Virus record (IMG/VR): IMGVR_UViG_3300042888_003016
Coordinates: 1-50,224 of that record
Length of the DNA stretch: 50,224 bases
DNA from: a virus
Strand: one strand, 5' to 3'
Of the stretch, positions 3,001 to 50,224 are shown one piece after another. Position numbers and translations under genes: made by a program. Positions within the stretch are counted from its first letter, which is position 1; the number at the start of each line of letters is the position of its first letter. The notes beneath the pieces are model-generated. The model searched no databases and was not told the origin of the DNA. It saw only the letters and a program-made list of their open reading frames with translations.

Positions 3001-6000
3001 AGATAAGACAACATTTGACAGAAGTTGCCGACCTTCTCCCCGATGGAACAAATGAATTGCTGAGAAAAATACAAAATAGTGAAATTGAAGAAGAAGATGC
3101 ATATGAATCTCTTTCTAGATATGTTGGCGATTCAGAATCTACGCAGCCGGTCTCAAAATTGTGGTTCAACACGGCAGCACCATTGTTTTCTGCAAATAAC
3201 GAAACATCCGATTTACTAAAAGTTTTTGAAAACGACAAAAAAAATCAAATTAATAAATTGTTCGCAGAAATTGCTTTTGCAGAAATTAATTTTTCTGAAG
3301 AATCTCCTGAAAAAATAAAAAAACAAATACAGGAATTTGTTCAAACAAATCCAGTAGACGGAATTGGTTCTAGAGGTATTTATATTGAACCAACCACCGC
3401 CGGCAAAACACAAAGCGCACTCGAGAAAAAACAATTAGAATTAATATCAAAATATGACGGAACGTCAGAGTCCGCAAAAGAAATAATTGACTCACTCACA
3501 GAAGAACAGGTAAGAAAACTCTGGGCAAAATACATATTCCCAAGTTTTTATAGAGTCACTGGAACTGGACCAGGCTCATTTATTAGAAAAAGAAATCAAA
3601 AAGCTTCTGCGGAAAGAGCACAGCAAGTACTAAATAGGCTTGAGGATAAGTTCAAGAATTCCATTTATGGTTTGGGTGGTTTCGTTGATGCAGACGGATA
3701 CTCCGCCGATGACGTAAATATGTTAATTTCCGATGCAATTGAAAACTCTTTTGGCGTAGCTTCATTGGAAAGTTTAAGCAAAGAGGAAAAGAAGGAGTAT
3801 GTTTCCCTTGTCGGATATTTCCTTTCCGGCGGCAGGTCTTTGCTCGTAAAAGGAGAATATACCGAAGCTTTGAGAAAAATTGATTTAGAAAAAACCCCAA
3901 AATCCATACAGCAAAGAAAACTTGAGAGAATTGACAATGAACTCTCCGAGATACTAAATGATGCAGGCGACAAAATGGATGAAGCCGTTTCTGATTTGTT
4001 GGGTGAGTATAGAAACATGTCTCCAGAGGAACTTGAAATTCTTCGTAAATTAGAAGAAGAATTTGGTGACACCAAAGATGAAAGCACATCTCAAGGGGGT
4101 GAATTTGCTGATGCGCCAGACGACTGGGAGGATAATGACCCATTTGGTCCTGTCGGCTCAATGGCAAGAAAGCCAGATGGCTTAACCGAAAAAGCCGAGG
4201 CACTTCTTGATGCGAACTTAACCCCTCATAAAAAACATGACCAAAAAGCACAAGATGAATTTGCATATGTTGAGCAAGCGGCAGCGCTTGAACTTAGAAA
4301 ACTTGGCTTGGAAACACCTGGAGGATTCTTCTATACAGACTCTATTGATGATGGAATTGACCCACGAATTGAGGCTTCGTATGTTGCCGAAATAAACAAG
4401 CGTGTTGATGAGCTTTTCGAAAACAGCGAGTTTAGAAGAATGAAGAGTGGCAAGCTTGTTTATATTCCACAAAGACTTATTGGAGGGGAATCAGCAAGTG
4501 CAGAAGATGAGTTAATACCATATAACCCAGAAATGGATGAAGACGAATCACTACGTCCATCAAACTTTAATCCAGATAGACACCCAATAGCATCCGCCCT
4601 GAATGAAAGATATGAGTCATTTATCGGCGGAAACAACAACCACTTTACTAGGGATTGGTTTGGTGAAAATGGAAGATATGGAACAGATGCACAAAATCTT
4701 CTTGGGTTAATCAATAACGAACCCGGGCTTATTGACATGGACAAGATTTTGACTTATGTTCAAAATCAAAGTGGCTGGATTGAGGGTGAGGACCTTGAAG
4801 AGTCAATGAGGGCTGCCGAATCGATAAGTATTCCTATTGTTCCCGAAAGATACAGGTCGGGCGGCAGTAGATTCGGAATAAGTTCATTTTCTTCGCAAAG
4901 AAGGCTTAGTGCTACTGAAAAAATAGAACTTGACAAACAGAAAAAAATAGCTCGCTCAAAAGCAAAGTCAAGCAAAGCTCTCCGCGATGGCTGGCTAAAC
5001 GACATGACAACTGGTTTAATGCTTAGCGAATCAGAAATAGGTTTGCGTGATGGATACTACCCGGATGCAGTCTTGGCTGGAATAAAATCCGCACTTCGTG
5101 AAAATGGGCAAATAGATAACCTTGATTCAGTAATAAGAGCCGCAAAAAATGCATCTGATTCTCGTTCTCAGGCAGAATCAAGAGTAAAAGCTTTGGCAAG
5201 AGTTATTGAGATTACGCAAAATTCGGGTGATTTGATTAGCGAAATATACGACATTGACAATGCCATAAATGAGCTTGATGATGCGGCAGACAGAACATCA
5301 CGCCAGTACCAGGAAAGAATACGCTCCCAAATTCTTTCAAGAGTAAGCGCAACTGCATCATTGATAAAAGCAAGAGAAATGTTTATAGCAGACCAAAAAG
5401 AAAAAATTCGTTCAAGAACAATAGCTCCAAGAGATTATCTAATTTCAATACAAGAATGGGATTCTCGATACGGTCCACAAATTCTTCAAATGCAAGCCGA
5501 AATACAATCATTTTCTACAAAAGCAGAAGCCAGTTCTCGCACTAGATACGACATAATGGTGCAAAAAGATGAGCTACAGAAAAGAGCAGCAGAGCTCAAA
5601 GACATGGTTGCAGACTCAGCAAGATATATGAATGTCTTGATGGCCCAAAGAGCGGTAAACGAAGCAATGAAGAATCTTGCCGACAATAACGGCGACGGAG
5701 TAGCTGGTTCTGGTCCTGTCGGTAGTATGAAAAAAATTGGTCGCTTATTTGGTGAATCTGGTGTGGTGAGTGGTTTTGATGAAAATGTTGATGATACTTC
5801 AAATGTTTATACTCCATTCAATATATCAATGACCAAAAAAGAAAAAGCATTAAGTAATGTGATTTTGTCTCAATTGCGTTCTGTTAATGGAATACAAACA
5901 ATTGACCTAGTAGAGAATAGAACTGCTCGGGCAAGACAGAGAATTGAGTCCTACAGACAGAGCGTCCAGTCTTCTCCGGTCGGGGCGGTTAGGGGTCTGT

Positions 6001-9000
6001 CAAACGAAATACAGGACATTCCCGAAGTGCTCAAGAGCGTATTGCAAGATGAATACAATCGCTCAATTGGCAAAATGCTTGCATTTGAAAACGAAAACGA
6101 TATTAGAAGCCTAGTTAATGCTTCTTATACCCCTCAGTTAACTCCTAATCCAATTGGTCCATATGTCATACGGCCATATGATGACCCATCAGTTACCTTG
6201 GAGCCTGAATCAAGTGGGTATTTTGGGTATGAGGAGATGCTCCCACCAACCGACAAGAGACTGCGTATTTATTACGATGCATTACGCAAAGAAGTTGAAC
6301 GGGTTGGCGGTTTTGTAATAAATCCTGGCGGTAAATCGACAAACGACGAAGGCAATAACCATAAGTGGGTTCAGGGTATGCCTGTTTATCATCAGGCAAA
6401 TGTGGATGCAGTACCATCAATCATCAAAAATGGTTTAAACAGCCGTGATGCCATGCGCATAGACGGCTCGCAGTCGCCTATTGACAAAACCAAAAAAGTT
6501 CCATCCGGGAAAATATGGCTTGCATCAACTCCCGCAATATGGGACGAACAGGCTCCACGTCAATTTGATGGGATAGTTACTATGAGAATCATGCCCGACG
6601 CAGATATGATTTCCACCCTAAATAGACACTATGCAAAAAAAGAAAAAAACTGGGACGGACTTAGCAGAAGTCCAGATTATTCAACAATTGAATTATCTGA
6701 TGCAAATATTTCCCCTAAGACAATAGAGATTCTCAACGAGCAGGGAGAATGGATTCCATTACTGAAGGCATATTTTACGACTTCGCCAGGAATGCCATCG
6801 AGGACATCTCAAATTCTTAACGAAATAGATGGTGGTGCGGATATATATTCCCTTGCAAGAAAAAACAATATGCCGATTACGGAGATTTTTTCAATTGCAG
6901 CAATTAGGGAATCACTTTTGGCGAATGTTAAACACGATATACAAAAACTGACCCTTAGACAACTTATAAATAAATACGGTTTTAGCCAGACAAGACTTAT
7001 AAACGCAATTGATGCTTCCAAAAAAGCTAACAAATTTAGAAAATCATACTCGCAGATGATGAAAAGATTTAACGAATTAGCACCAACAAACACCCTTGCT
7101 TCGTCGTACGAAATTCTAAATGAAGAATTTCCAGAAATTACAAAAATAAGGGGAATGGGTTCTGCAGCCAAGCTAATTACACTTAATGATGAGTTATTAG
7201 ATTCTGTAAGAGAAAAAATATCTAGAGCAATGAGACTTTTTTCAGACTACCCAAACATGGTTCCCCGTGTTGCAGCAGGCCTGACTGGTATTAGTCAGGA
7301 TTCAGCCAAGTCTATTTACAAGGCTTTACTAAATGATGAAAATAGAACTCCAAGGCCGGTGCCAACCGCTATCCGGGCAAGTTCACCAATGCCCGCCGAC
7401 TGGGACTACATGACATATGGAGAAAGACAGGATTGGCTCAGTTCGGATGAAGCAAAGCAGAGAATGGGCGCTCGAGCCAGAGGCTTTGCCGCGCAGCGAA
7501 ATGCAGAAGACATCGAATCATCTGGTTCAATGGATGGCCCATACGGAGCCATTGCTTCAGCTTTGAAAAAAGCAAACTTAGACAAAGATATCTATGGAAC
7601 AAATTCAAGTGACGAAAATGGAGTCAGCCCGACATTCTCCTGGAGGGGTCTAAAGGACTCAGACTTAATTAGAACTGGATTTTTGTCAACATCAAAGTTT
7701 ATTGAATCTATCCCAAACTTGCAAACTCTTAATGATGAAAATTTTGCGGTATTTTTAAACACATCGCCAGCTATTGCCCAAAAACTTAGAAGTGGTAAAT
7801 TCAATCTTTCTTTTAATGCTGCTAGAAAGCTTGCTTACTCAATAGGAAAAAATCCAGAAAATATATGGCCTACATATGCTGCGTCAGAACAGAAAAATGG
7901 CCCGGATGGCGACCTTCTTTGGATTTCAGGCAACTGGTCAGAAATGAAGCCAGTGTTTGAATCAATTGAATCAGGACAAAATGATTCGGAAATATCGGGA
8001 GCACTTGGGCGCGCAATTAACCCCAAAATGGCAACTGCTAGAAAACTTGCGACCAATGGGAAGCTTGAAGATTTCTACAAACAAGTTGGAAAAAAGAATC
8101 CAAGCATTGATGAAGTTTCTAAATTTATGTCTTCTTTAATGCCAGAATCAAGAAGGGAAACTGTTGCATCTTTCGCTAAAGCAGGGTATAGCGAATCTGA
8201 GATTGTTGAAACAACTGGATTTAACCCAAACACGGTAAGAAATCTTCTTCATGAACTGAGGAAGTCCGGTATGGCCCCATCCTCTATTGGCTCACAAGAA
8301 TGGATTGCAAAGAATAGAAAAGCAATCGTTGATGACATAGAATCCGGAATGTCAAAGAGACAAGCAATGCGCAAGTATGGAATAGGCGCAGCTGCTTTGA
8401 ACTCGGTAATTCAGCCAAAAGAAGAAAACGCAAGACCTAGGCAGTCGTTTAGAAATGCATATGAAGAAATGGCTTCTGGCCCTTCGGGTGCAATGTCAAA
8501 TCGAAGAATAGCAAGTGATGCCTCCCAGTCAAATGGCCCAACCCCAGAATGGGACTCGGAAAATCCAGAAGTTGGAGTATTTCTTCCAGATTCACCACCG
8601 GTTATGGTTGGAAGCCCGTTTCATGGGCCAATTGAAGCACGTAAGTTCTCAGACGGAGAACCCAAAGACCAAGAAGCTTTGGATAAATGGTTCCCAGGTC
8701 TTGTAGATTTGCTCAAATATCATGTTAATGGTGGAGAGCTGTTTGATTCCTCGGTTGAGTCAGAAGAAGACGCCCCAAGCGTTTATGCAGAATCAGAAAA
8801 AGACAGAACCAAGCCAGTAAATGAAATGATTAGAGCAAATCAATTCCCTGGATTGATTAGGTCAATGCGGCACATGATGGGCGAATCCTACAAGCAGATG
8901 GTCGCCGAACAGCAGGCAATTGAAGAGTTCGGACCAGATGGGTATTCTGAAAGAGGAGATAGCGCACTAGAGCGAGAATACCAACCAGGTTTTATTGATG

Positions 9001-12000
9001 TTGAGTCAATCACATCTCTTGATAGTCCAATTGCAAAAGAAATCATGATGATTTATCGTTCTCTTGGAAGGGTTACATCGGGTTTTGTTCCTGGGGACTC
9101 AAGCTGGATTAATGATGCAGTTCGTTTGATGTCCAGAGATTCAGAACTTGAAAAAATAGGACTAAATGAGGATTCCCGAAACAAAATAAAAGAGTGGATG
9201 AGAACAGCTACAGCTCGTGAATTTAAAGCTGCGCAGGCCATGTCGGCAATTCACTCAATGATGATTGATGTTGTGAATGATGTCAATAGTGCAATGTTTC
9301 CCAATAATCAATTTACTGGCAGAACAGTTGCGGACGACCAGATGCTCGGATGGTATTTTGACAGAATTTTCAAAGCAATATATGACGAAGCCGATTCATC
9401 ATTTGTTCTTGAGGATATATCTAGAGAAAAAGGTGACAGTTTTGTTCGTCTTAATCCAGAGCAAATCGAAAGATGGTATGACTCCACAAAGGACATTGGC
9501 GAAACAATGGCTGCCCTTTTTGCTGACGCAATAGAATTTTCTTCAACTAATTCAAAGTTTTCAGATGATTCGTTTAATATGCTTTCGGTTGCTCCAAGAA
9601 AAGCAGCAGATGGAAAATTCTCCATATACGGCCCGGACATTGTTTACAGCGGCATGGAGGATTCAAGACCATACAATAAGGCAGTTAAATGGTTTGCTAG
9701 ACCTGGCACGGAAGAAGAAGTTGAATCCCTGTATGATTCTTACGAAAAATCTCCAGATGCTTATTGGTGGCAGGGTGAAGACGGCCAAATATCAACGACT
9801 GAGCCAATCACAACAAAAGACATTCTATCAATGGATTCTGGTGGAGAGTTCTCTGAATACATGAGAATACTCACTGAGTCAATTGCTGAATCACCAGACG
9901 AAAATGCCTCCGTAATTCTCAGACAGCTTTTTGGAATAACCCCGTCTGGTGGAACATCTCTAAATAAAGACGAGCTTGCCCTCAATCAGGCCTACTCTCA
10001 GCTGAGCGGTTTCCTAAGAGGAGAAGTTGATTCTCTTAAAGAAAACAGGACGAGAGTTTCGGAAAATATGACAATGTCTTCATATTTCCCATGGGTAAAT
10101 TGGTCAAATTCATCAGATGCATACCCAGTAATTTCTGGAGACATACAGTCACTGCTTACCCCAGAGCAAGCAGAAAGATATGAGAAAATAAATACTTTTA
10201 CACAAGAAAGAATAGATTCTCTTGATGGGGCAGCTAAAGCCGCATATCAAAAGTATGTGGAATTAGCAAAAAATACATCTGCCATTAACAATTTAAGAAA
10301 AACTCGTGGCAGATTAGACGAATCATTAAAACCATTAGACAAAGTTTTTGAAGAAATAAAAAAATTACAGGAGAATCCTGAAAACGCATCTGAAACAGTT
10401 GGCCTTCTTGCAGAATTACAACAATTTGCCGAAGAAATTGGTGCTCAGCAAATCGCCGACACAATTGACGGAATTGCGATGAAAATTTTTGAAGCGCTTC
10501 AGGGTAATGCAACAGATTATAATCCCAATTTTAAAGATGCAAAAACCCTTATGTTAAATTTAGTACAAAACGAATTTGCTCAATACTTGAAATTTTTTGA
10601 TTCTGCTATGAGCGTAGGTGACGCTTTTGAAAAAATTGCACAATTTATTAAAGCGGAAGACAAAAAAACACGAAGAAATTCATTAATGCCAAGATACAAA
10701 CGAGAAGTCATTGATGCTGCTCCAGCTTCTACATTCTCAACAGATTTCAAAAATATAAGAACTTTTGATTCTTGGCTAAATGACAACGGTTATGAAGATT
10801 TGACATACGAATACTACTCATCGGCAGATGAAATACCTAAAAATTTCTTTGGCGAATCTTCGGAAATAAATGATGACAGAATTGTTCCACCTGGTGATGG
10901 TCCCATAGGCAAAATGGCACTGAATAGATACACCAAACCAAACATCATGTCTGTTGTGCACGCTCACGAAGAAGCAAAACTTGGTAAGTCCAGTGAGGTA
11001 ACAATACCCTACCTACTGCTTGGTCTTGCAAGAGAAAACATCGGTAAAAAGTCTGTTAACCAAAGCATTGCCGGAAGAGTGCTTAATAGACTGGGTATTA
11101 GTGTTAACGACCTACGTGACGCAATAAGTAAAACATTAACCCCAAGCACGAGTGATGATTCAGGGAAAGTTGCTTCTTTGAGTTTTAGCGCTAGAAAAAC
11201 AATGATTAACTCAGTAAGGGAAGCCCTTAATCGTGGTGAAAACATAATTGATACAGAACACTTAATTGCTTCAATTGCCAGAGCAAAAGATGGAAGAGAT
11301 GATGGTCTTTCCGAAATTCTAAAGTCTCTTGGAACCAGCAAGTCAGAGCTACTTGCAGAGAGTGTTTCCACAATGAAGAGATTCTCAATGGGTCGATTCC
11401 CCAACGAGAGTGGCCCAATTGGGAAAATGGGTATTGCGAGAGATGCTACTTTGCAAAGGGATAGAGAAATTGAAGCGCTTAGAGCTGATGAAAACGCATC
11501 AAACCTATGGTTCAACAAAGACAGAAACCCTGGAATCAGAAACAATACAGCCTCCGACTCGGAGCAAGTACAAGAACTACAGAGACTGATGGACTTGTAT
11601 GTTTCTGGTGTTGCAGATAAGAGTATTTCAGCAAACGACTTCAGAGAAGGAACATCACCTTTTTCTTCAGACTCGATTCTTCCTACCAATTCCTCGCTTA
11701 TATATGGAGAAATAGGAGAAGAGCCATCAGATATTATTGGAGCAATTGCATATCGTTCAAATCTGATAGATGCAATGATTGACCGTTCTGGCAAGGATTA
11801 CAAGGATTACACAGACATTATTGCTAAAGCAAAATCACTCTTTAACAATGACAAGCACATTGAGCTATTCAATGATGATTCACCAACCGGCAGAATGTCA
11901 ACATTTGATGGTTTAATTAAGTCCTATGAAGGCATATACGGCATGCCTACGATGCAACCTCAGGACGAGTACTACGAATCTGTTTATGGAACAAGAGACA

Positions 12001-13673
12001 TCGCTTCGGACAGCCTAAGAAGAGCCGCCTACACGGTATCAAAGTACTCACCGCTAGATATAAGCAAAAACCTTACATCTGGCGATGACGATGATGTTGA
12101 ATGGTCAACGAACAACTGGTCACTTGCCAAGAACAGGTTGATGCAGGCATCGGATGCCGTAATCGTAAGAATGAACAACAATGATTTGCGTTCTGCTGAA
12201 GTACTCATGATTGACAGGAAGAGTGGACCATTCACAAACGCAAAAGCACTTGTCGGTGGACTGCGAGATGGCAGCGAAGACTACATGACTACCGCCACAA
12301 GAGAAGGACTGGAAGAGGTTGGTATTGACCTTGAGTCTTCAATCGAAGCAAGACCGCTTGGCATAATAACCTCACCAGACTGGGACCCTAGGTTTGTAAA
12401 AGGTGCAAGAGTTGGTGCCGGTTTGTTTATTGTTCCATGGGATTCAAATGTAACAGCTGCTTCAGACGCAAAAGCTGCAAGTTGGGTACCACTTGAAGAC
12501 ATAGCAAGAGGAAAATATCCAATCGCATTTGGACATGCTGAGTGGTTGAGAAGAGCTGTTGCCAAAATGGGCAAAGATTACGAAGGCTCAAACTCCGCAG
12601 ACCCATTTAGCGACTTGAGACTATCAATAGCGCTGAGACTAAACATACTTGCAAAAGCTCAAAGAATAAGAAATCAAAGAATACTTGCAAGAATAAACAA
12701 AGTACGTTCTGAAAAAGATGCAGAAAAATTCCTGCCCAACGACAAGATGCCACATCCTTTAATGCCGTGGGGTGCAGAATTTAAGAGCGACTCATGGAAT
12801 CCAGATGGTCCTGTTGGCAAAATGGCAAGACCATCAAGACCAATAGTCGACAAGTCACTAGCTCAAGACCTTGGACTTCTTGACTATCAATCTGGATACT
12901 CGATTGATGAACTTAATTCTTCTAGTCCAATTCCTACATCTCAAAAATATAGACTTAGTGGGAATAAAGTTTCCGATGATAGATACAACGGACTCTGGAT
13001 TCCGTATATGGAGAATAGTATTTCCAGAGTTTCAAAGCCCGAATTTAATGAAGGAAAAGAACAGCCAACCGTTTATGTGCTTGGTGGTTCTTCGGGAACT
13101 GGAAAAACTATCGCCAGAACTTCTGGATTTTCGGGGATACCCTCATACAACGATGCTGTAGTTATTGACCCAGACGATGCAAAAATGGTTATGCCGGAAG
13201 CACGCTACTGGTACGAAAGACAACTTCCCGACGCTGCCAACTTAACTCACGCAGAATCTCGTGCTCTGGCGGCTTCATTAATGAGAAGAGCCAGTTCCGA
13301 AGGAATTGATATGACCTACGATACAAGTGGTCAGTTCAACGACGGCAACAAAGACCTGATTAACTGGAGGAAGGCGGGGTACAAAATTGTTGCCCACTAC
13401 TTCTTTTCACCAGATGATGTAATTCTAAAAAGAAACGCAGAAAGATTTGAAAGAACTGGAAGAATGGTCCCTGATTGGATTCCTCCAGTGATAAACAGAA
13501 ATCTTTACTTTCAATTACCAAACCTTGACGCTTTCTTTGATGAGCTGTTTGTCTATGACACAACAAATGACCCGATGAACCCAATAATGGTTGCTCGAAG
13601 GGCAATTAACGAGCAGTTGGAAGTAATGGACCCCAAACTCTTTGATTTTGCCAATTTTGACAAAGGAAGGTAG
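1..13673 (+). CDS. Giant polyvalent (multidomain) phage protein, 5' partial
   Basis: One uninterrupted frame of more than 4540 codons ends just before the capsid gene. The first ATG is at 45, but the frame is open back to base 3 with no stop, so the true start probably lies outside the window. Long helical segments alternate with recognisable domains: ART-like (about residues 2110-2220), several HTH segments (about 2300-2790), two Clp-N repeats (3625-3790), a Nudix hydrolase (box at 4072-4094) and a zeta-toxin-like P-loop domain (Walker A at 4347-4355). A [G/S]PxGxM motif occurs 11 times, mostly at domain borders. Such domain mixes are known as phage 'polyvalent proteins', thought to be delivered with the DNA and cut into effectors. 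The position before the capsid gene supports a virion-associated protein. Delivery and cleavage here are inference. No signal peptide or transmembrane segment is evident. Confidence 0.85.
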   Translation, partial: SGSWSPLANYAQSSMYLDYRNKKNRKNLDIANSIDASQQEVFGEISELMLTLRERVANNTLKLADYAKSYDQKTGTLSLDFYNPKRPTSALGDSPGLLKSITMLLAIATANSRNGKERSQARQVLNELLDWAETYLPQYSRIRPGNNKELSELIANGPVGRMGVQEAYEATENKKYKTLRGRLNAFENKSQSIIFDSVADRNPVSKLKELESELDDIISEGWMNSRVLASLFETISGHMDDAFEEGISERTRKRMRPVFDGFANVMKAKYDKDYAEAFGMISLDSIQRKRRRANSRTRQETRDSSPVGSMAAGYSPTRLDTAEMNKDSHLTEEFKNRWVAIDESNQKADEILSSNNPSLVSFPGNDITFNWQNESSRLKYLTTSDKNRLIKNFIRKPNGASFPSRLRKTQELDSSGLLEEIGVYGETFEKHPFFVTFHGDKLVKFATSPSDVNADANTIKKILGAIHPELNPETFEAIYQSWIRNPFITIDTNDGKTVGVRFGLNNNDTEMRNELRKRIRDVYDFVSRITGGKVPKAQYPAEKESAATAEAEFPLTMRGLANDFFRRIQPSLLNRGHSIESLSNIFNQNAEEMALPEIANREQLLKFLQENFPGIIKNLKPESSKLDGLTSDEVTEAVEIVSMLNDGTRVLNFGEIKQLLSTKENGYELWTDDAVEEVINTVNNYTSVSGGSQLIETGPVGRMSLPGEKPSEILRDEFEAARILRSMQKAKDMTPEEEDAYRKVQWARQELENVVEEDWVRFGPFDLTNAYRPLAERQSGNLSLYIRSLGDEAAMDMFKEISSKFPDTEKEESISDFESKIRTALSKAARGDEITPNYPDSWPPEMLDSDLNEILSPKEMAAVAQVEDALDRETLVSMLGGELLGSDPEETRQEILRIVESLPKINVPEEDGSSSSIKTPEQMSQDILIEAFDGTLASAKELVDSMSEQQLDSLRKSFPISDYAKNSFNIQNLQVQRASLIRQTSVAMAKLSQTEDGRNKIRQHLTEVADLLPDGTNELLRKIQNSEIEEEDAYESLSRYVGDSESTQPVSKLWFNTAAPLFSANNETSDLLKVFENDKKNQINKLFAEIAFAEINFSEESPEKIKKQIQEFVQTNPVDGIGSRGIYIEPTTAGKTQSALEKKQLELISKYDGTSESAKEIIDSLTEEQVRKLWAKYIFPSFYRVTGTGPGSFIRKRNQKASAERAQQVLNRLEDKFKNSIYGLGGFVDADGYSADDVNMLISDAIENSFGVASLESLSKEEKKEYVSLVGYFLSGGRSLLVKGEYTEALRKIDLEKTPKSIQQRKLERIDNELSEILNDAGDKMDEAVSDLLGEYRNMSPEELEILRKLEEEFGDTKDESTSQGGEFADAPDDWEDNDPFGPVGSMARKPDGLTEKAEALLDANLTPHKKHDQKAQDEFAYVEQAAALELRKLGLETPGGFFYTDSIDDGIDPRIEASYVAEINKRVDELFENSEFRRMKSGKLVYIPQRLIGGESASAEDELIPYNPEMDEDESLRPSNFNPDRHPIASALNERYESFIGGNNNHFTRDWFGENGRYGTDAQNLLGLINNEPGLIDMDKILTYVQNQSGWIEGEDLEESMRAAESISIPIVPERYRSGGSRFGISSFSSQRRLSATEKIELDKQKKIARSKAKSSKALRDGWLNDMTTGLMLSESEIGLRDGYYPDAVLAGIKSALRENGQIDNLDSVIRAAKNASDSRSQAESRVKALARVIEITQNSGDLISEIYDIDNAINELDDAADRTSRQYQERIRSQILSRVSATASLIKAREMFIADQKEKIRSRTIAPRDYLISIQEWDSRYGPQILQMQAEIQSFSTKAEASSRTRYDIMVQKDELQKRAAELKDMVADSARYMNVLMAQRAVNEAMKNLADNNGDGVAGSGPVGSMKKIGRLFGESGVVSGFDENVDDTSNVYTPFNISMTKKEKALSNVILSQLRSVNGIQTIDLVENRTARARQRIESYRQSVQSSPVGAVRGLSNEIQDIPEVLKSVLQDEYNRSIGKMLAFENENDIRSLVNASYTPQLTPNPIGPYVIRPYDDPSVTLEPESSGYFGYEEMLPPTDKRLRIYYDALRKEVERVGGFVINPGGKSTNDEGNNHKWVQGMPVYHQANVDAVPSIIKNGLNSRDAMRIDGSQSPIDKTKKVPSGKIWLASTPAIWDEQAPRQFDGIVTMRIMPDADMISTLNRHYAKKEKNWDGLSRSPDYSTIELSDANISPKTIEILNEQGEWIPLLKAYFTTSPGMPSRTSQILNEIDGGADIYSLARKNNMPITEIFSIAAIRESLLANVKHDIQKLTLRQLINKYGFSQTRLINAIDASKKANKFRKSYSQMMKRFNELAPTNTLASSYEILNEEFPEITKIRGMGSAAKLITLNDELLDSVREKISRAMRLFSDYPNMVPRVAAGLTGISQDSAKSIYKALLNDENRTPRPVPTAIRASSPMPADWDYMTYGERQDWLSSDEAKQRMGARARGFAAQRNAEDIESSGSMDGPYGAIASALKKANLDKDIYGTNSSDENGVSPTFSWRGLKDSDLIRTGFLSTSKFIESIPNLQTLNDENFAVFLNTSPAIAQKLRSGKFNLSFNAARKLAYSIGKNPENIWPTYAASEQKNGPDGDLLWISGNWSEMKPVFESIESGQNDSEISGALGRAINPKMATARKLATNGKLEDFYKQVGKKNPSIDEVSKFMSSLMPESRRETVASFAKAGYSESEIVETTGFNPNTVRNLLHELRKSGMAPSSIGSQEWIAKNRKAIVDDIESGMSKRQAMRKYGIGAAALNSVIQPKEENARPRQSFRNAYEEMASGPSGAMSNRRIASDASQSNGPTPEWDSENPEVGVFLPDSPPVMVGSPFHGPIEARKFSDGEPKDQEALDKWFPGLVDLLKYHVNGGELFDSSVESEEDAPSVYAESEKDRTKPVNEMIRANQFPGLIRSMRHMMGESYKQMVAEQQAIEEFGPDGYSERGDSALEREYQPGFIDVESITSLDSPIAKEIMMIYRSLGRVTSGFVPGDSSWINDAVRLMSRDSELEKIGLNEDSRNKIKEWMRTATAREFKAAQAMSAIHSMMIDVVNDVNSAMFPNNQFTGRTVADDQMLGWYFDRIFKAIYDEADSSFVLEDISREKGDSFVRLNPEQIERWYDSTKDIGETMAALFADAIEFSSTNSKFSDDSFNMLSVAPRKAADGKFSIYGPDIVYSGMEDSRPYNKAVKWFARPGTEEEVESLYDSYEKSPDAYWWQGEDGQISTTEPITTKDILSMDSGGEFSEYMRILTESIAESPDENASVILRQLFGITPSGGTSLNKDELALNQAYSQLSGFLRGEVDSLKENRTRVSENMTMSSYFPWVNWSNSSDAYPVISGDIQSLLTPEQAERYEKINTFTQERIDSLDGAAKAAYQKYVELAKNTSAINNLRKTRGRLDESLKPLDKVFEEIKKLQENPENASETVGLLAELQQFAEEIGAQQIADTIDGIAMKIFEALQGNATDYNPNFKDAKTLMLNLVQNEFAQYLKFFDSAMSVGDAFEKIAQFIKAEDKKTRRNSLMPRYKREVIDAAPASTFSTDFKNIRTFDSWLNDNGYEDLTYEYYSSADEIPKNFFGESSEINDDRIVPPGDGPIGKMALNRYTKPNIMSVVHAHEEAKLGKSSEVTIPYLLLGLARENIGKKSVNQSIAGRVLNRLGISVNDLRDAISKTLTPSTSDDSGKVASLSFSARKTMINSVREALNRGENIIDTEHLIASIARAKDGRDDGLSEILKSLGTSKSELLAESVSTMKRFSMGRFPNESGPIGKMGIARDATLQRDREIEALRADENASNLWFNKDRNPGIRNNTASDSEQVQELQRLMDLYVSGVADKSISANDFREGTSPFSSDSILPTNSSLIYGEIGEEPSDIIGAIAYRSNLIDAMIDRSGKDYKDYTDIIAKAKSLFNNDKHIELFNDDSPTGRMSTFDGLIKSYEGIYGMPTMQPQDEYYESVYGTRDIASDSLRRAAYTVSKYSPLDISKNLTSGDDDDVEWSTNNWSLAKNRLMQASDAVIVRMNNNDLRSAEVLMIDRKSGPFTNAKALVGGLRDGSEDYMTTATREGLEEVGIDLESSIEARPLGIITSPDWDPRFVKGARVGAGLFIVPWDSNVTAASDAKAASWVPLEDIARGKYPIAFGHAEWLRRAVAKMGKDYEGSNSADPFSDLRLSIALRLNILAKAQRIRNQRILARINKVRSEKDAEKFLPNDKMPHPLMPWGAEFKSDSWNPDGPVGKMARPSRPIVDKSLAQDLGLLDYQSGYSIDELNSSSPIPTSQKYRLSGNKVSDDRYNGLWIPYMENSISRVSKPEFNEGKEQPTVYVLGGSSGTGKTIARTSGFSGIPSYNDAVVIDPDDAKMVMPEARYWYERQLPDAANLTHAESRALAASLMRRASSEGIDMTYDTSGQFNDGNKDLINWRKAGYKIVAHYFFSPDDVILKRNAERFERTGRMVPDWIPPVINRNLYFQLPNLDAFFDELFVYDTTNDPMNPIMVARRAINEQLEVMDPKLFDFANFDKGR
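6361..6780 (+). other. ART-like domain within the polyvalent protein
   Basis: The translated stretch begins with a YHQAN segment followed by an 'I..NGL' turn and continues with a beta-rich SGKIWLAST segment and a 'GIVTMRI' strand. This order resembles ADP-ribosyltransferase/2'-phosphotransferase-like (ART) folds, which open with a Y/H-containing strand followed by 'I...GL'. ART domains are common in polyvalent proteins. I cannot identify the catalytic triad with certainty, so activity (modifying host proteins or RNA, or removing a phosphate) is unproven. Confidence 0.45.
6940..8420 (+). other. Tandem helix-turn-helix-like segments within the polyvalent protein
   Basis: Several short segments have the spacing of DNA-binding HTH units: LRQLINKYGFSQTRLINAI (about 6955), LTGISQDSAKSIYKAL (about 7280), a Cro/C1-like segment ending AYSIGKNPENIW (about 7780-7868), AGYSESEIVETTGFNPNTVR (about 8182) and SGMSKRQAMRKYGIGAAALN (about 8345). 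All lie between the divergent motif at 5973 and the GPSGAM motif at 8478. If that segment is released as one piece it would combine an ART-like domain with DNA binding. The HTH assignments rest on pattern only. Confidence 0.45.
10917..11429 (+). other. Double Clp-N domain within the polyvalent protein
   Basis: Two repeats match the Clp amino-terminal (Clp_N) pattern. The first has 'VVHAHEEAKLGKSSEVTIPY' followed by LLLGLARE and a GRVLNRLGISVNDLRDAI segment. The second has 'MINSVREALNRGENIIDTEH' followed by LIASIARA and an EILKSLGTSKSELL segment. Clp-N domains bind adaptors and substrates of Clp chaperone-proteases. The segment is bounded exactly by GPIGKM motifs at 10899 and 11412, giving a self-contained piece of about 170 residues. 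A decoy or recruiter of host ClpC is plausible but inferred. Confidence 0.75.
11898..12824 (+). other. Nudix hydrolase domain within the polyvalent protein
   Basis: Codons 12258-12326 encode a Nudix box: G, five residues, E, seven residues, then REGLEEVGI, close to the consensus Gx5Ex7REUxEExGU. A strand-rich segment and a GRxWVPLEDIA-type tail (here 'AASWVPLEDIA') follow, as in ordinary Nudix enzymes. The family hydrolyses nucleoside diphosphates linked to another moiety (NADH, ADP-ribose, capped RNA, damaged dNTPs); the substrate cannot be read from sequence. The motifs at 11880 and 12807 flank the segment. Confidence 0.8.
12825..13670 (+). other. Zeta-toxin-like P-loop kinase domain at the C-terminus of the polyvalent protein
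   Basis: Codons 13083-13109 encode the Walker A loop GGSSGTGKT. A 'VVIDPDDAK' segment follows, then a 'MTYDTSGQF' segment and a 'RNAERFERTGRMVP' helix, the order expected for zeta toxin/PezT-type kinases, which phosphorylate UDP-N-acetylglucosamine or similar small molecules. The preceding GPVGKM motif (12807) would free a piece of about 280 residues. No antitoxin gene is evident next to it. Substrate is unknown. Confidence 0.7.
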
Positions 13674-13682
13674 TATCTAATC

Positions 13683-13889
13683 ATGGCAAAAATGAACAGT
13701 TTTGGCAACCCAATGGCCCGTGAAGGGATAAACCCAATTGAGGCCTTGCTTTTGGCCGCCATGAACGGATATTCCCTTGAGGAAGCCGGACTTCTGGATA
13801 ATAAGGAAAATCAGGAAATGCTAAAAATAGTCAATTTGAGCGTTGCTGAAGCTAGAAAAATTGGCGCAATAATTGACATACCCTCTTAG
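13683..13889 (+). CDS. Small virion-region protein of unknown function
   Basis: A 68-residue product starting MAKMNSFGNP, with a helical central part (PIEALLLAAMNGYSLEEAGL). I recognise no family. The ATG lies 9 nt after the stop of the giant gene, and a purine-rich GGAAGG stretch at the end of that gene could serve as a somewhat distant ribosome-binding site. Its place between the polyvalent gene and the capsid gene suggests a morphogenesis role (scaffold, head decoration or processing), which is inference. It carries no [G/S]PxGxM motif. Confidence 0.7.
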   Translation: MAKMNSFGNPMAREGINPIEALLLAAMNGYSLEEAGLLDNKENQEMLKIVNLSVAEARKIGAIIDIPS

Positions 13890-14018
13890 TAACATACATT
13901 CCCTACATAACTTTTTGGCGTGTTAAATTTGTAACTAAGGCATACGACGCTGGGTGCTTACCTGAGCAGTGTTGACACAAACAATTTCATAACCAAAATC
14001 TCAATAGGGAGAAAAAAA

Positions 14019-15338
14019 ATGTCAGACGATTCACGCGTAAGAGAGCTTCAAGGAGCTCTAAGAGAAAAAATGGCCGACAACAAGACAATTGCCGACTCGT
14101 TCAGAGTTGACAACGGTACAGTTGTTGTGTCCGCAGAGCAGAAGTCAGCCTTTGATAAGAACATGGGCGACATCCGCGAAATCAAGAGCCTCATCGAGGG
14201 CCTTGAGTCAATGAAGGGTGTCCAGGAATGGGGCTCGCAACAATCATCGGACTCTGTAGCAGCAGCAGCAGCAGCTGGCGCATTCAGCGCACAGACAGAG
14301 CGTCATATGAGCATTGGAGACGCATTCGTTAACTCGGCTGAGTTCAAGTCGCTTCAAGGTGGAAAGAATGGCGCAAACATGCCATCAGCTTTCCAGATGA
14401 ACACTTCGCTCACCGGCTACAACGTTAAGGACGTTTACTCAGCATTGCCATCAGGCACTCCTGGCTCGTTCGGAACAATTCAAAGAGACCCAATTGTTAC
14501 GCCTCCAATGCGTACCAAGCGTGTTCGTGACTTGTTCCCAGCCCGCACAACTTCAGCAGCTGTCATTGAATACTTCCAGCACCTTGGCTTCACGTCAACT
14601 GGTGGCGGTACAAACAGTGCGTCATCTGTTGCAGAGCGTTCAGGTGCAAACTTTGGTGCAAAGCCACAATCAAGCTTCGTATTTGTTGGCCAACAGGCTC
14701 CAGTACGCACGCTTGCTCACTGGGAAGCAGCACACAGAAACGTTCTCGCCGATGAGCCACAACTGCGCTCAATCATCGACAACGAGCTGATGTACGGCCT
14801 TCGTTTGCAGGAAGATGACCAGATTCTGAACGGCGACGGCACAGGCGAAAACCTGACCGGCGTTCTTGAGACATCGGGCATCCAAACCTACGACTGGTCA
14901 GACGGCGAAAATCTGCCAGTTGTAGACACGATGGCAGATGCGATTCGTCGCGCTGCAACCTTGTCCTTCTTGGCATACTACGAGCCAACCGGCGTTGTTC
15001 TTAACCCACTTGACTGGGAAAAGATTGAATTGACCAAGGACAGCAACGGCCAATATTTGGTCGCTGTGTCAGTGGCAATGGGTGGCGAGCCACGCGTGTG
15101 GAGACTCCCAGTTGTTGAGAGCCCTGCAATTGCAGAAGGCACAGCACTTGTTGGAGCATTCGGCACCGGCGCACAGTTGTATGACCGTGAGCAGGCATCG
15201 ATTCGCATCAGCGAGCAGCATTCGGACTTCTTCGTAAGAAACGCAGTTGTCATCTTGGCTGAACAACGTTTGGCACTTGCTGTCAAGCGTCCAGAGTCGT
15301 TCGTGAAGGTAACCTTCGACGCCGCTCCAGAAGCCTAA
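14019..15338 (+). CDS. HK97-fold major capsid protein
   Basis: The 439-residue product has the layout of the phage_capsid (HK97 gp5-like) family. An N-terminal charged helical region (about residues 1-80) would act as a scaffold-like delta domain. An Ala-rich linker and the core follow: 'PIVTPPMRTKRVRDLFP', an E-loop/spine region, 'RLQEDDQILNGDGTGENLTG' (the conserved end of the spine helix) and a C-terminal 'FVKVTFDAAP' strand typical of the family. The start follows an AGGGAG ribosome-binding site. A TTGACA box lies at 13972-13977 in the 129-bp leader, but no good -10 box is paired with it. A strong terminator follows at 15353, so the gene may be a monocistronic, highly expressed unit. Codon use is richer in GC than in the giant gene upstream, as expected for an abundant protein. 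Confidence 0.93.
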   Translation: MSDDSRVRELQGALREKMADNKTIADSFRVDNGTVVVSAEQKSAFDKNMGDIREIKSLIEGLESMKGVQEWGSQQSSDSVAAAAAAGAFSAQTERHMSIGDAFVNSAEFKSLQGGKNGANMPSAFQMNTSLTGYNVKDVYSALPSGTPGSFGTIQRDPIVTPPMRTKRVRDLFPARTTSAAVIEYFQHLGFTSTGGGTNSASSVAERSGANFGAKPQSSFVFVGQQAPVRTLAHWEAAHRNVLADEPQLRSIIDNELMYGLRLQEDDQILNGDGTGENLTGVLETSGIQTYDWSDGENLPVVDTMADAIRRAATLSFLAYYEPTGVVLNPLDWEKIELTKDSNGQYLVAVSVAMGGEPRVWRLPVVESPAIAEGTALVGAFGTGAQLYDREQASIRISEQHSDFFVRNAVVILAEQRLALAVKRPESFVKVTFDAAPEA

Positions 15339-46664: not shown

Positions 46665-46883
46665 ATGGCCACTAACCCTTTTGAAATAAGGCTTTCGTTA
46701 ACCAATGCGATTGCTAACTCGTTGTTTGACATTGCTTTTGATGAGAGCATATCGGACAAAGAGCTTGCGCAGCAACTTGAAGATTACAAAGATGTTGCAT
46801 CAATGCTTCTTGAAGACCTCGGGTGCGAGGTCATTGAAATCAAAGACGGAAAGATGATTTGCTCCTTTAGTCCACAAAAATAA
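46665..46883 (+). CDS. Small acidic protein of unknown function before the non-coding array
   Basis: A 72-residue product starting MATNPFEIRLSLTNAIANSL, helical, then 'DYKDVASMLLEDLGCEVIEI' and a short beta hairpin 'KDGKMICSFS'. No family is recognised. Its stop lies 2 bp before the first CGGGACTA unit, so the array begins exactly where coding ends, and the promoter of this gene could transcribe into the array. Confidence 0.7.
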   Translation: MATNPFEIRLSLTNAIANSLFDIAFDESISDKELAQQLEDYKDVASMLLEDLGCEVIEIKDGKMICSFSPQK

Positions 46884-46885
46884 CA

Positions 46886-47104
46886 CGGGACTAGTAAGTG
46901 ACAGGAATAAATTGAAGCGCAGAAGGAGCGAAGCGACTGGTATTCCAAGGAAATACGGAAGGCCCCATTTACTCCATTTACGAATGGCTGTAGGCCGAAG
47001 GCCGTAAGCCTGAAGAGCGAGCAGCGTTAAATGGATAAATGGAGGGAGTATTACTTTGGAATGCGAGCAAGCAATTTTGCCGTAGATTTTTATTCAAATA
47101 TATT
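46886..47104 (+). ncRNA. Structured-RNA candidate, family P copy 1
   Basis: Shares fixed boxes CGACTGGT (about 46935), ACGGAAG and GGGAGTA with copies at 47916 and 48121, but with different helices between them. Here CCATTTA (46965-46971) and CCATTTA (46974-46980) pair with TAAATGG (47036-47042) and TAAATGG (47028-47034). An outer helix pairs ATTCCAAGG (about 46942) with CTTTGGAAT (about 47053). A GCC-rich hairpin caps the stem. Confidence 0.6.
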
Positions 47105-47915
47105 CGGGACTAATAAACAGACTTAGCATTTGCGTGCAAGGTCGCGTGCTGCGTAGTTGTTTATGTCGTTGTGCACGGCTCAGCGTGCAAGCGAAGCGTC
47201 ATAAGACATAACGACGAAGCATCTCGCGGACTGCATGCAATGCGATTGTTGTGATGAGACCCAACACGGGACTAGTTAGTTCATAAACATACAAAGCGAG
47301 TTGTTGCTTTTAGGAGCGGAGCCTTAGCGAAGGTTTCCAGAGCGTAGCCTGGAATCTGAGCGGAGGCTAAGCGATGAAAAGAAACACGAGTGGGAACTGT
47401 GATTAGGCTTTCCTCGGGACTAAATACCTACCGGGAACAGACAGCGAAGTTACTTTCTTTTCGAGCGGTGCGAGAGCGAGAAGGTTCCAGAAGCGGAGTT
47501 ATTTTGCGATTAAAGACTTTATGGGAACAAGCGAAGATGCGAGCGTTGAAGGACGAGAAGCTTGAATGTAAATAGTAAAACTTCGGGACTAGGGACTATT
47601 CAAGCGGTGAGTCGTTTGATGCGAGCAGTGAAGCGCAGTGTACTTAAAGGATTTAAGAGCGGGATAACGAGCAGTCTGGAATTTCGAGCGTTCGCTGAGC
47701 GAGGAAAGAAGTACGAGCAAAAGTTGTGCTGTGAGCCTACTCGGGACTATGAAGTATGTTTTACAGTCCATGTTCAACAAACAAGCTTTATGAAGCGTCC
47801 GGAGCTGCTGAAGACTGGTGGTAGCTCTTTTGCGGACACCGTCGAGGCATCTCCAGGTAAGCGAGTATGCGATAACTTTTATTCGATTCATAGATAGTTT
47901 TTATTCAATACGACT

Positions 47916-48120
47916 CGGGACTTACATATAAAAGGATTGAAGCGTGAACGAGAAGGAGCGCAGCGACTGGTAATTTCGAGAAAAACGGAAGAGACTCTTT
48001 TCTCGTTTTCTGGGTGGCTGCAAGCCCCCCAAGCGATAGCGGGAAAAGGAAAAAGAGAGGGAGTATTTCGAGGAACTACGAGAGAGCGATTCATCCGGGG
48101 ACTTTTCAACAAAACCATTA
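47916..48120 (+). ncRNA. Structured-RNA candidate, family P copy 2
   Basis: The conserved boxes CGACTGGT, ACGGAAG and GGGAGTA flank a helix of different sequence: CTCTTTT (47996-48002) with AAAAGAG (48052-48058) and TTTTC (48007-48011) with GAAAA (48044-48048). The helix is in the same place as in copy 1 though the bases differ, a covariation signature. The outer helix is weaker here. Confidence 0.6.
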
Positions 48121-48341
48121 CGGGACTAATAACCACAGGGTTAGGCGTGTGCCTGTTTTGAAAGGGAGAGAATCGACTGGTGGTTTTTAAAGTTTACGGA
48201 AGAGGCTCTTTTTTGTCTTTTTTGAGTGAGGTACGAGCAAAAGCGACGCTTTTTGGAGCGGTAAAAAGAAAAAAAGAGAGGGAGTAAAATTTAATAAACC
48301 ATGAAAAACGGCACTGCCAGGAGTTGTTAGATAAATCAACA
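48121..48341 (+). ncRNA. Structured-RNA candidate, family P copy 3
   Basis: Same fixed boxes around a third version of the helix: CTCTTTTTT (48206-48214) and TTTTTT (48218-48223) pair with the A-rich strand 48263-48278. The outer helix pairs GGTTTTTAAA (about 48182) with TTTAATAAACC (about 48290), with one bulge. Confidence 0.6.
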
Positions 48342-48484
48342 CGGGACTAACTTCTATAAGCCAACAAGCATTGCGTCTTTCTGTTCGATGTGAATGAGCG
48401 TGCTGGTAACGAGGTACGAAGTTACGCAAAGCGAAAGAACAACGAAAAAGAAAACGCATGCGGTAGCTTTTATTTGATACGACT
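48342..48484 (+). ncRNA. Structured-RNA candidate, family A copy 1
   Basis: Contains AGCATTGCGT and, near the end, ACGCATGC, which can close a long stem, plus hairpin GTAAC (48406-48410)/GTTAC (48421-48425). Family A copy 2 keeps both helices with changed bases. Confidence 0.6.
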
Positions 48485-48735
48485 CGGGACTTATGTGTAC
48501 TAGGACTATTTGAAGAGTCGCAATAGCGACGAAGTGTTATTTCTTGGAACGATACGGAGCGAAGAAGGTATGCGTAGGGAAATGTGAAGCGACGGAGTGC
48601 GACAGCGCTTCGGCGCTAGCATAAGCGAAGTGACCTTCTTTTAGCGAGGTATTGTGTAAAGAAATACACGAGGTGCGTTGTGGCGAAGCAAATGTCCGGG
48701 ATGTCGCAATCAAAGATAAACATCTACCAAAGTCT
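48485..48735 (+). ncRNA. Structured-RNA candidate, family B copy 1
   Basis: Shares long blocks with 49166-49413, including GGTATGCGTAGGG, CGACAGC and CGGCGCTAGCATAAGCGAAG. AAGAAGGT can pair with ACCTTCTT, and AGCGC-TTCG-GCGCT forms a very stable UUCG hairpin near 48604-48617. The unit ends with CTACCAAAGTCT before the next octamer. Confidence 0.6.
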
Positions 48736-48890
48736 CGGGACTAAGTACCTAGGTTGTCGGGCTGCCGACACCTGATGAGGAAGCGTAATTTTCATGGCCC
48801 CTGGTGGCGGACACGGAATCATGTAATGATTTCGAGGTCTTCCGCCCCATGTTAAATTTGCTGGTGCCAAAGCTGTTAGATAAGTCTGCA
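48736..48890 (+). ncRNA. Structured-RNA candidate, family C copy 1
   Basis: GGAATCAT (48815-48822) pairs with ATGATTTC (48826-48833) around a GTA loop, inside an outer GGCGGA/TCCGCC stem. The block GCTGGTGCCAAAG and TGTTAG near the end are shared with family C copy 2. Confidence 0.6.
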
Positions 48891-49025
48891 CGGGACTAAT
48901 AACCAAAAACAGTGAGCATTCCGAACGAAGCGACGTAGCCGCCGAGGCATCCCGTAGCTCGCGTAGGGAGCCTGGCGTCTACCGAGCAAGCGAGGAGGCG
49001 AGGAAAAGTCTCATGTTTGCCTACA
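48891..49025 (+). ncRNA. Structured non-coding unit without a recognised second copy
   Basis: A 135-bp unit beginning CGGGACTAATAACC. It holds several GC-rich inverted repeats (CGTAG, GCCTGGCG, GAGGCGAGG) but I find no paralogue in the window. It sits between families C and A in the duplicated block. Confidence 0.4.
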
Positions 49026-49165
49026 CGGGACTTATCTTTACAAACGAGCAAGCATTGCATTTTCGTTCGACTCGGAGCGAGCGTGCTGTGACAAGGCACG
49101 AAGTCACGCAAAGCGAGCGTAGGTCGATAAGAAAATGTATGCGGTGAGTGAGTAGTAAATGAAAT
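49026..49165 (+). ncRNA. Structured-RNA candidate, family A copy 2
   Basis: Diverged copy of 48342-48484. The hairpin is GTGAC (49088-49092)/GTCAC (49103-49107): the A-T pair of copy 1 has become G-C on both sides. The long stem is TGCAT/ATGTA instead of TGCGT/ACGCA, again a paired change. Confidence 0.65.
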
Positions 49166-49413
49166 CGGGACTTATGTGTAACAGGACTGTTCGACGAAAT
49201 GGTTAGCGACGAAGTGTTATTTTTTGGAACAAAAAGAAGCGAGGAAGGTATGCGTAGGGTAATGCGAAGCAACGAAGTGCGACAGCAATTCGGCGCTAGC
49301 ATAAGCGAAGCGACCTTTTGAGCGCACTTATTGTGCAGAAAAATACACGAGAAGCGGTCCATGAGGCGAATATCCGGGATACCGAATTCATAGATAAATA
49401 TCTATTCAAGTCT
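49166..49413 (+). ncRNA. Structured-RNA candidate, family B copy 2
   Basis: Diverged copy of 48485-48735 with the same order of blocks (TTATGTGTA, AGGACT, GCGACGAAGTGTTATTT, GGTATGCGTAGGG, GGCGCTAGCATAAGCGAAG). The long AAGGT/ACCTT stem is kept; the UUCG hairpin of copy 1 is weaker here. Confidence 0.6.
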
Positions 49414-49641
49414 CGGGACTAGATAATGGTTTGATGGTTGAAAAACAATCACGCAAAATCAACTTAGACAGATAAGAGAATCTAGGTGATTCTGGCGAAG
49501 CGCATGCGTAGACATGAATCAACGGTTGCCGGGTTGAAAAGCGTAGGGTTGTTCGAGCCGAGCAGCGGTGAGAACACACGAGCGTTCAACTCGGCAAAGA
49601 TTTGCTTATGTGGATAAGTTGGAACTCTATTCAAATATCCT
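49414..49641 (+). ncRNA. Structured non-coding unit inserted between families B and C
   Basis: A 228-bp unit with hairpin-rich stretches (AGAATCTAGGTGATTCT near 49478; GCCGAGCAGC and CGTTCAACTCGGC near 49557-49594). No second copy is seen. Its presence breaks the B-C order found at 48485-48890. Confidence 0.4.
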
Positions 49642-49796
49642 CGGGACTTGATACCTTGAGATGTCAGGTTGTCGCGCCGAGATGCTAGGCGTATTTTTAT
49701 GACCCCCCATGGTGCGGACACAAAATCATGTAATGATTTTGAGGTTGTCCGCCGTCATATAAATCGCTGGTGCCAAAGTTGTTAGGGGGGTTAGTA
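49642..49796 (+). ncRNA. Structured-RNA candidate, family C copy 2
   Basis: Diverged copy of 48736-48890, exactly the same length (155 bp). The hairpin is AAAATCAT (49722-49729)/ATGATTTT (49733-49740): two G-containing pairs of copy 1 (G-C and G-U) are A-T here. The outer TGCGGACA/TGTCCGCC stem is kept. Confidence 0.65.
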
Positions 49797-50224
49797 CGGG
49801 ACTTGATAGCGAAGATTTTGCAGCACGGCGGGCGTAGCGTGACTTGAGTGCGAGCATCGCTGTAGCGGACCGGGTAAATCGACTGAAGCTAGTGAGTGAA
49901 TTTTGTGTATACAAAATGATACGAGCGTTGCTGAGGGAGATTTCTCGGGTAGCGGAAGTGGGCGAGTGGCTCAGTCAAAGCGTAGAGCGTTTGTGCTGCA
50001 AATCTGGTAAGTTTTATTCAACTTGCTACGGGGCTAAATAACAAATTCAGGCGTTCGTTTCTTTCTGGGAACCAGAATAAGTGAGCAACGGTCAAGCCTC
50101 TTGACGAAGCGAAGTGGCTCGACAATTAATTGTTGCGGCGATTGCTAAAGGCATTAGCGATGACTAATCAATCACATGTTGGATAATCGGGACTAGAGAC
50201 TTTATACCGGGAAGCGCTAAGGTC

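Follow-up and report, generated by a model that had tools for sequence, protein, structure and literature searches.

Using a virus record of 50,224 bases as our window, i.e., the whole stretch of DNA that was analyzed, we identify in a lake bacteriophage genome a non-protein-coding array of nearly 6,000 bases (~5.7 kb), made up of ~27 units that are each opened by the heptamer CGGGACT. We give a probability of roughly 0.7 to the reading that this is a phage-encoded noncoding RNA array, which is cut or bound at the heptamer and which forms a modular RNA or ribonucleoprotein assembly. The units and their linker, a conserved structure that is specific to one strand, duplexes between neighboring units, a recurrent G.A joint and the turnover of whole units are all observed, and are described below.

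The window holds 18 whole units (46886-50224) and its edge cuts through unit 19, with the array continuing in the near-identical contig L128 for ~9 more units. The units are ~119-360 nt long and fall into more than 20 groups that are unrelated in sequence, with CGGGRCT as the sole repeated stretch. As RNA, each start reads (A/U)CGGGACU(A/U). Exact copies of CGGGACTWR number 17, against 0.64 expected in the whole window, and all of these are on the + strand and within 46886-50196; CGGGACT itself occurs 18 times on the + strand and never on the - strand of the window, and only within the array. The positions of all units, and of the open reading frame (ORF) directly before them, are collected in the table.

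Table. Units of the array and the preceding ORF, in window coordinates
Feature	Position	Strand	Remarks
72-aa ORF	46665..46883	+	Conserved; directly 5' of the array; candidate partner protein of the RNA
Unit 1	46886..47104	+	First copy in the sequence-only reading; R1 family core 46934-47062
Unit 2	47105..47266	+	Self-folding; orthologue group z = -8.8
Unit 3	47267..47414	+	Only in window-like phages; absent from L130, L134, L136 and L177
Unit 4	47415..47583	+	z = 0.1 alone; pairs along its length with unit 5
Unit 5	47584..47741	+	Partner of unit 4; own CGGGACT in apical loop of the joint rod
Unit 6	47742..47915	+	Self-folding; z = -3.8
Unit 7	47916..48120	+	Second copy in the sequence-only reading; R1 family core 47964-48077
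Unit 8	48121..48341	+	Third copy in the sequence-only reading; R1 family core 48174-48298
Unit 9	48342..48484	+	Paralogue of unit 13; family z = -3.8
Unit 10	48485..48735	+	Paralogue of unit 14; family z = -11.8; both-side changes in 19 pairs
Unit 11	48736..48890	+	Paralogue of unit 16; z = -2.3
Unit 12	48891..49025	+	z = -3.6
Unit 13	49026..49165	+	Paralogue of unit 9
Unit 14	49166..49413	+	Paralogue of unit 10
Unit 15	49414..49641	+	z = -5.5
Unit 16	49642..49796	+	Paralogue of unit 11
Unit 17	49797..50028	+	z = -8.6
Unit 18	50029..50187	+	Linker reads CGGGGCT; forms a joint rod with unit 19
Unit 19	50188..50224	+	Truncated by window edge; continues in L128

Orthologue groups of the units were aligned and folded, with column shuffles as controls, and 14 of 21 groups gave z values from -3.6 to -16.2. 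Alignments of coding flanks from the same phages (n = 36) had a mean z of -0.8 and a minimum of -3.2, so that these 14 groups surpass each of the coding controls, even though the units of the array are mostly without sequence similarity to one another. Another four groups are unstructured when folded by themselves: three come from units that pair with a neighbor, and the fourth holds the terminal ORF; two further groups give no clear signal. The fold of most units is a rod, sometimes branched, in which the helices are short. Among the consensus pairs there are 754 G-U cells and only 65 A-C cells, and folding favors the + over the - strand in 20 of 21 groups, the exception being the group with the terminal ORF; both observations point to the + strand as the functional single strand. 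The base pairing of the array is therefore of the kind by which a structured noncoding RNA is recognized, i.e., it is conserved beyond chance.

Units 1, 7 and 8 are one RNA family (R1). A sequence-only reading had placed their starts, exactly, at 46886, 47916 and 48121, and had described three fixed boxes, each of which we find in all three units: CGACTGGT at 46934-46941, 47964-47971 and 48174-48181, ACGGAAG at 46955-46961, 47985-47991 and 48196-48202, and GGGAGTA at 47044-47050, 48059-48065 and 48280-48286. It had also proposed that each unit uses different bases for the helix that lies between the last two boxes, and this is the case, with CCATTTA opposite TAAATGG, CTCTTTT opposite AAAAGAG and CTCTTTTTT opposite an A-rich partner. 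Its central claim, that sequence changed while pairing was kept, holds in an alignment (A3) of nine distinct sequences, comprising the three units and their orthologues from related phage contigs, in which 18 of 31 pairs are altered on both sides; the covariation signal is strong, where its absence with more homologues would have told against the claim. We judged covariation by column shuffles, strand slides and coding controls. Paired cells make up 93.8% of A3 against 77.6 +/- 1.7 in shuffles, cells altered on both sides number 50 against 20.3 +/- 3.5, and the covariation score is 0.483 against 0.213 +/- 0.026, with none of 500 shuffles reaching the observed value in any of the three. The pairing signal is also lost when the 3' strand is slid by 1-3 columns, a lenient control, since the pairs counted are the RNAalifold prediction from A3 itself; the shuffles are less affected by this origin of the structure, as are the orthologues of unit 8 (~90% identity), in which the pairs beside ACGGAAG flip from TTT/AAA to AAA/TTT. 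Two further helices covary: one encloses the boxes from outside, and the other is long-range and lies close to the ends of the unit. A covariance model of R1 finds exactly three places in the window (93.8-134.8 bits) together with the orthologues, and has one weak match (24.1 bits, E = 0.0065) in a unit of the array of the distant phage L141, which otherwise looks unrelated. The pattern CGACTGGT followed by ACGGAAG was too loose as a search key by itself, returning 120 stretches, nearly all by chance.

That these units bear the signature of a functional RNA can be upheld in part: covariation, the excess of G-U over A-C and the comparison with coding flanks establish a selected structure of the + single strand, which in all likelihood is RNA. 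The same reading took the fixed boxes to be an active or binding core, and here our analysis departs from it. The boxes look like structural joints, since CGACT makes up the 3' half of the mini-hairpin AG-GA-GC-GNA-GC-GA-CU, whose GA/GA joint is found again across the array, and ACGGAAG and GGGAGTA frame an asymmetric, purine-rich internal loop; CGACTGGT is part of the G.A joint in the mini-hairpin. Nor are the three copies the whole feature, being 3 of ~27 units. An ordinary small family, in which these three units are structured and the remainder is filler or decayed sequence, would account for their being the most obvious paralogues by eye, but signals are stronger in other groups (z of -16.2, -11.8 and -8.8) and the G.A joints are common to a second phage lineage as well. 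We regard this explanation as refuted by the folding of the other groups, the joints in both lineages and the two-unit rods, and give it almost no credence.

The joint shared by many units is a 2x2, 2x3 or 3x3 internal loop with a 5' G and a 3' A on both strands, in the forms C-GA-G/C-GA-G and C-GNA-G/C-GNA-G. A 5' G and 3' A on both strands of a loop is the signature of sheared G.A pairs. In minimum-energy folds, we count 44 small G.A-closed loops in the window lineage, against 3.9 in dinucleotide shuffles, and 50 against 3.75 in L141; in the consensus structures there are 30, against 1.5 in shuffles, distributed over 13 of 19 groups. On the + strand of the array there is 1.0 joint per 200 nt, and on its - strand there are none; the density is 0.06 in the rest of the window and 0.058 across unrelated viral contigs together with three actinophages. 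A 174-kb relative contains nothing comparable outside its array, and stretches of the actinophages Cantare, Gilgamesh and GMA6, which have related capsids, contain no joint arrays above background; the lone background peak, in L078, is a G-rich coding region. This count in folded structures replaced a search for 3x3 GNA loops flanked on each side by a 4-bp stem, for which the enrichment was weaker (6 vs. 0.55 and 3 vs. 1.2) because the helices between joints are short.

When concatenated units were folded, most linkers were crossed by few pairs, with the exceptions of those between units 4 and 5 and between units 18 and 19. Units 4 and 5 form a rod with 93 inter-unit pairs (joint alifold z of -9.9), 6 of which are altered on both sides, and units 18 and 19 form one with 92 inter-unit pairs (joint alifold z of -13.0), 13 of them altered on both sides; in the concatenated folds, 93 and 99 pairs cross the two linkers. 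Folded alone, the units that form these rods are unstructured or nearly so (z of 0.1, -0.6, -1.8 and -0.5). In every phage that has them, both pairs gain -36 to -63 kcal/mol by cofolding, against a mean of ~-6 over all pairs; L136 has neither unit 18 nor unit 19. The top cofolding pairs in L141 are likewise adjacent units (15 with 16 and 2 with 3, -21 kcal/mol). The linker heptamer thus sits either between folded domains or, where two units form a long rod, in its apical loop, and the latter position suggests that it is more than a mere spacer between domains, which would have no reason to lie there. By partition function, the unpaired probability of the heptamer is 0.41-0.61, rising to 0.8-0.9 just 3' of it (mean over all positions, 0.455); the linker is predicted to be only moderately unpaired, and its constant single-strandedness is not proven. 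Unit ends have no specific pairing with their own unit, and a terminal helix between the 5' start and the 3' tail of the same unit was rejected, being no better than pairing with the ends of other units.

Comparison of related phages showed that whole units are gained and lost at linker boundaries. The window, L124 and L128 carry unit 3 with one linker, which L130, L134, L136 and L177 cleanly lack; three of the latter four also lack unit 7. Units 9-11 (48342-48890) and units 13, 14 and 16 (49026-49796) are a block duplication, with unit 15 amid the later copies, and the two blocks have diverged to ~73-89% identity. This turnover between phages, as if targets change, would suit a decoy array, in which rods mimic double-stranded RNA, occupy the host nucleases or RNA sensors of anti-phage defense and stay uncut, with the G.A joints interrupting the perfect helices so that most are no longer than 8 bp; a decoy would also fit the many different rods of one material with short helices. 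Across relatives, however, single units are kept in sequence and structure at roughly 70-90% identity, which is more than a mere decoy needs, and we consider this explanation unlikely.

The reading that we prefer, an RNA array cut or bound at its linker, has the + strand being read, probably as one long transcript that starts with the 72-aa ORF. The stop codon of this ORF is followed by the first CGGGACT after 2 nt in the window and 0 nt in the distant phage L141, and promoters and terminators are not in excess in the interior of the array, which together favor continuous transcription. As candidate roles of the linker, a per-unit sigma-70 promoter was rejected (no excess over shuffles, and no second box at a fixed spacing), as was a per-unit terminator (no excess over shuffles). 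Most units fold into rods with G.A joints, with some neighbors pairing lengthwise, and CGGGACU would act as a recognition site, at which the transcript is cut or is bound by one common partner. Cutting appears somewhat more likely than mere docking. The resulting RNA strands may join up into a multi-part assembly, of RNA or ribonucleoprotein, that the phage uses while infecting and that would serve as a scaffold or sink rather than as a catalyst. In its most specific form, which we put forward only tentatively, the cassette array would be a new kind of genetic element that yields several dozen different RNA strands, cut at the heptamer, that fold and pair via G.A joints into a natural multi-strand assembly. 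It is also possible, if doubtful, that the array remains one uncut RNA of ~5.7 kb, in which CGGGACU recurs as a docking site, for a phage protein or some other RNA, along a scaffold built like beads on a string. The lack of excess promoters and terminators agrees with an uncut RNA, as do the extended linker motif WCGGGACTANNNA and the location of linkers between domains or at the apex of two-unit rods, where a docking site would be; by contrast, units that are gained and lost singly and that differ widely between lineages suit free-standing products better, and a linker at the tip of a two-unit rod suits strand ends.

Scans based on the gene for single-stranded DNA-binding protein (SSB) and on the linker identified the array in 16 other viral contigs, which belong to two phage lineages. 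The window-like phages have ~18-28 units where the array is complete, and the second lineage (L140/L141) has at least 26, with no blastn similarity to units of the window lineage. Selection keeps the array in two lineages that have different sets of units and the same linker and joints. The array lies upstream of, and divergent from, the SSB gene, and in both lineages is closed by a small C-x2-C zinc-ribbon-like ORF (complement of ~1722-2081 in L128), in or just behind which inverted AGTCCCG copies occur. Among the neighbors scanned against PHROGs are SSB, a DNA methyltransferase, a helicase and two small ORFs without assigned function; the 174-kb relative gave no match to RNase III. The 72-aa ORF was found at 18 loci, all in array-bearing phages or their fragments among viral contigs, with none in the bacterial and archaeal genomes scanned and no convincing relative in PHROGs or PDB sequences. 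Searches of viral contigs for further arrays with this ORF returned the same phages only, and searches with the linker-spacing pattern returned the same phages, chance matches and protein repeats. Other phages with a 60-70% identical SSB are without the array. The L141 SSB led to further SSB relatives, and those scanned for G.A joints (L227, L228, L232, L233 and L237) contain no array. In its major head protein, the phage is similar to actinobacteriophages (best, ~49%). Elsewhere, the window encodes a single ORF of 4,542 aa (45-13673) beside structural genes, and L141, of the second lineage, carries at least nine tRNA genes (12399-14244) on the far side of its SSB gene.

The heptamer also occurs outside the array in relatives, where CGGGRCT is enriched (24+25 and 23+23 copies, whereas the reversed pattern has 5-9). 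It forms convergent pairs (AGYCCCG..CGGGRCT) with center spacings of ~24 and ~33, often within ORFs; divergent pairs within 60 bases are never found in these relatives. Some convergent pairs adjoin a conserved GAACGGTGGCGTATATA-like box, and in an array-bearing relative they precede a TGACGGTGGCGGATGA box and promoter-like sequence. Such pairs are seen in phages related by SSB (the L157/L164 records, i.e., G002 and G003; L154, L169 and L175; and L246 at 1-8600). The heptamer may thus predate the array in this phage group and have been taken over by it. Cluster K mycobacteriophages reportedly carry comparable elements, SAS and ESAS, which are short repeats, with inverted pairs among them, dispersed between genes of these actinophages; they resemble the dispersed pairs described here, but their sequence is different, and we know of no array of structured units there.

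Convergent pairs that often lie inside ORFs have a DNA-like look. Tandem sheared G.A pairs and GNA loops are stable in DNA too, so that a single strand of DNA with structure would be consistent with the covariation and the G.A joints as well. In such an explanation the units would be single-stranded DNA hairpins, comparable to integron attC sites or to replication or recombination cassettes, with CGGGACT as a crossover or nick site; unit gain and loss exactly at CGGGACT, the inverted pairs in relatives and the adjoining SSB gene all fit. However, the units have no regular AGTCCCG mate inside them, their long multi-helix folds and two-unit duplexes far exceed what a recombination site needs, and they lie directly 3' of an ORF on the same strand, and we consider DNA hairpins very improbable. 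We infer instead an array that works as RNA, and its transcription, cutting, assembly and function are likewise predictions made from sequence.

Searches against Rfam 15, with all families including GOLLD, ROOL and OLE, left the array unmatched at the gathering score and, in three array-bearing loci, at E <= 3, and a degenerate known RNA or ribozyme was rejected at the latter threshold. ARAGORN and Rfam detected no tRNA in the array, the Rfam matches being tRNAs outside it only. Phage tRNA arrays are similar to the array in that many different small structured RNAs lie head to tail and are presumably cut from one transcript, but they are punctuated by folded RNA, and the array by a sequence heptamer. 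The toxI arrays of type III toxin-antitoxin systems, CRISPR arrays and TIGR arrays are tandem noncoding units from a precursor, as we propose here, but consist of near-identical short repeats, whereas the array has unlike units with 7-8 repeated bases, and its lengths (119-359 nt) and more than 20 groups are not those of near-identical, fixed-length repeats. Such arrays also come with a cognate protein (Cas, Tas or ToxN), for which the neighbors scanned here are those listed above. Integron attC cassettes share turnover at a short conserved core and conserved hairpins of variable sequence; the core of the array has one orientation, without the inverted mate that would pair core sites in each unit (18 + and 0 - copies of CGGGACT in the window), and its units contain no ORFs.

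In the open literature on phage RNA arrays and large phage RNAs, taken without most subscription papers and preprints, the nearest systems are GOLLD, ROOL and OLE, and a phage block of 5-6 kb with many structured RNAs has no counterpart there or in Rfam. The array appears new in kind because these three differ from it in the features tested. GOLLD and ROOL are large RNAs of phages and prophages that build nanocages from RNA alone (PMC12286853). Like the array, they are phage-encoded, large, noncoding and highly structured, and often lie near tRNA genes, and RNA-RNA assembly is a live possibility for the array likewise. They are, however, single RNAs of ~600-900 nt that assemble as identical subunits, whereas the array combines ~27 different units, punctuated by a heptamer, with G.A joints and duplexes of two units. 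A conserved heptamer at unit boundaries, combined with G.A-closed internal loops, provides a key with which further arrays can be sought. If our reading is correct, the array allows one to test directly whether natural RNA assemblies are made of interchangeable parts, and a modular, perhaps multi-stranded RNA architecture would join GOLLD and ROOL among the few large phage RNAs known.
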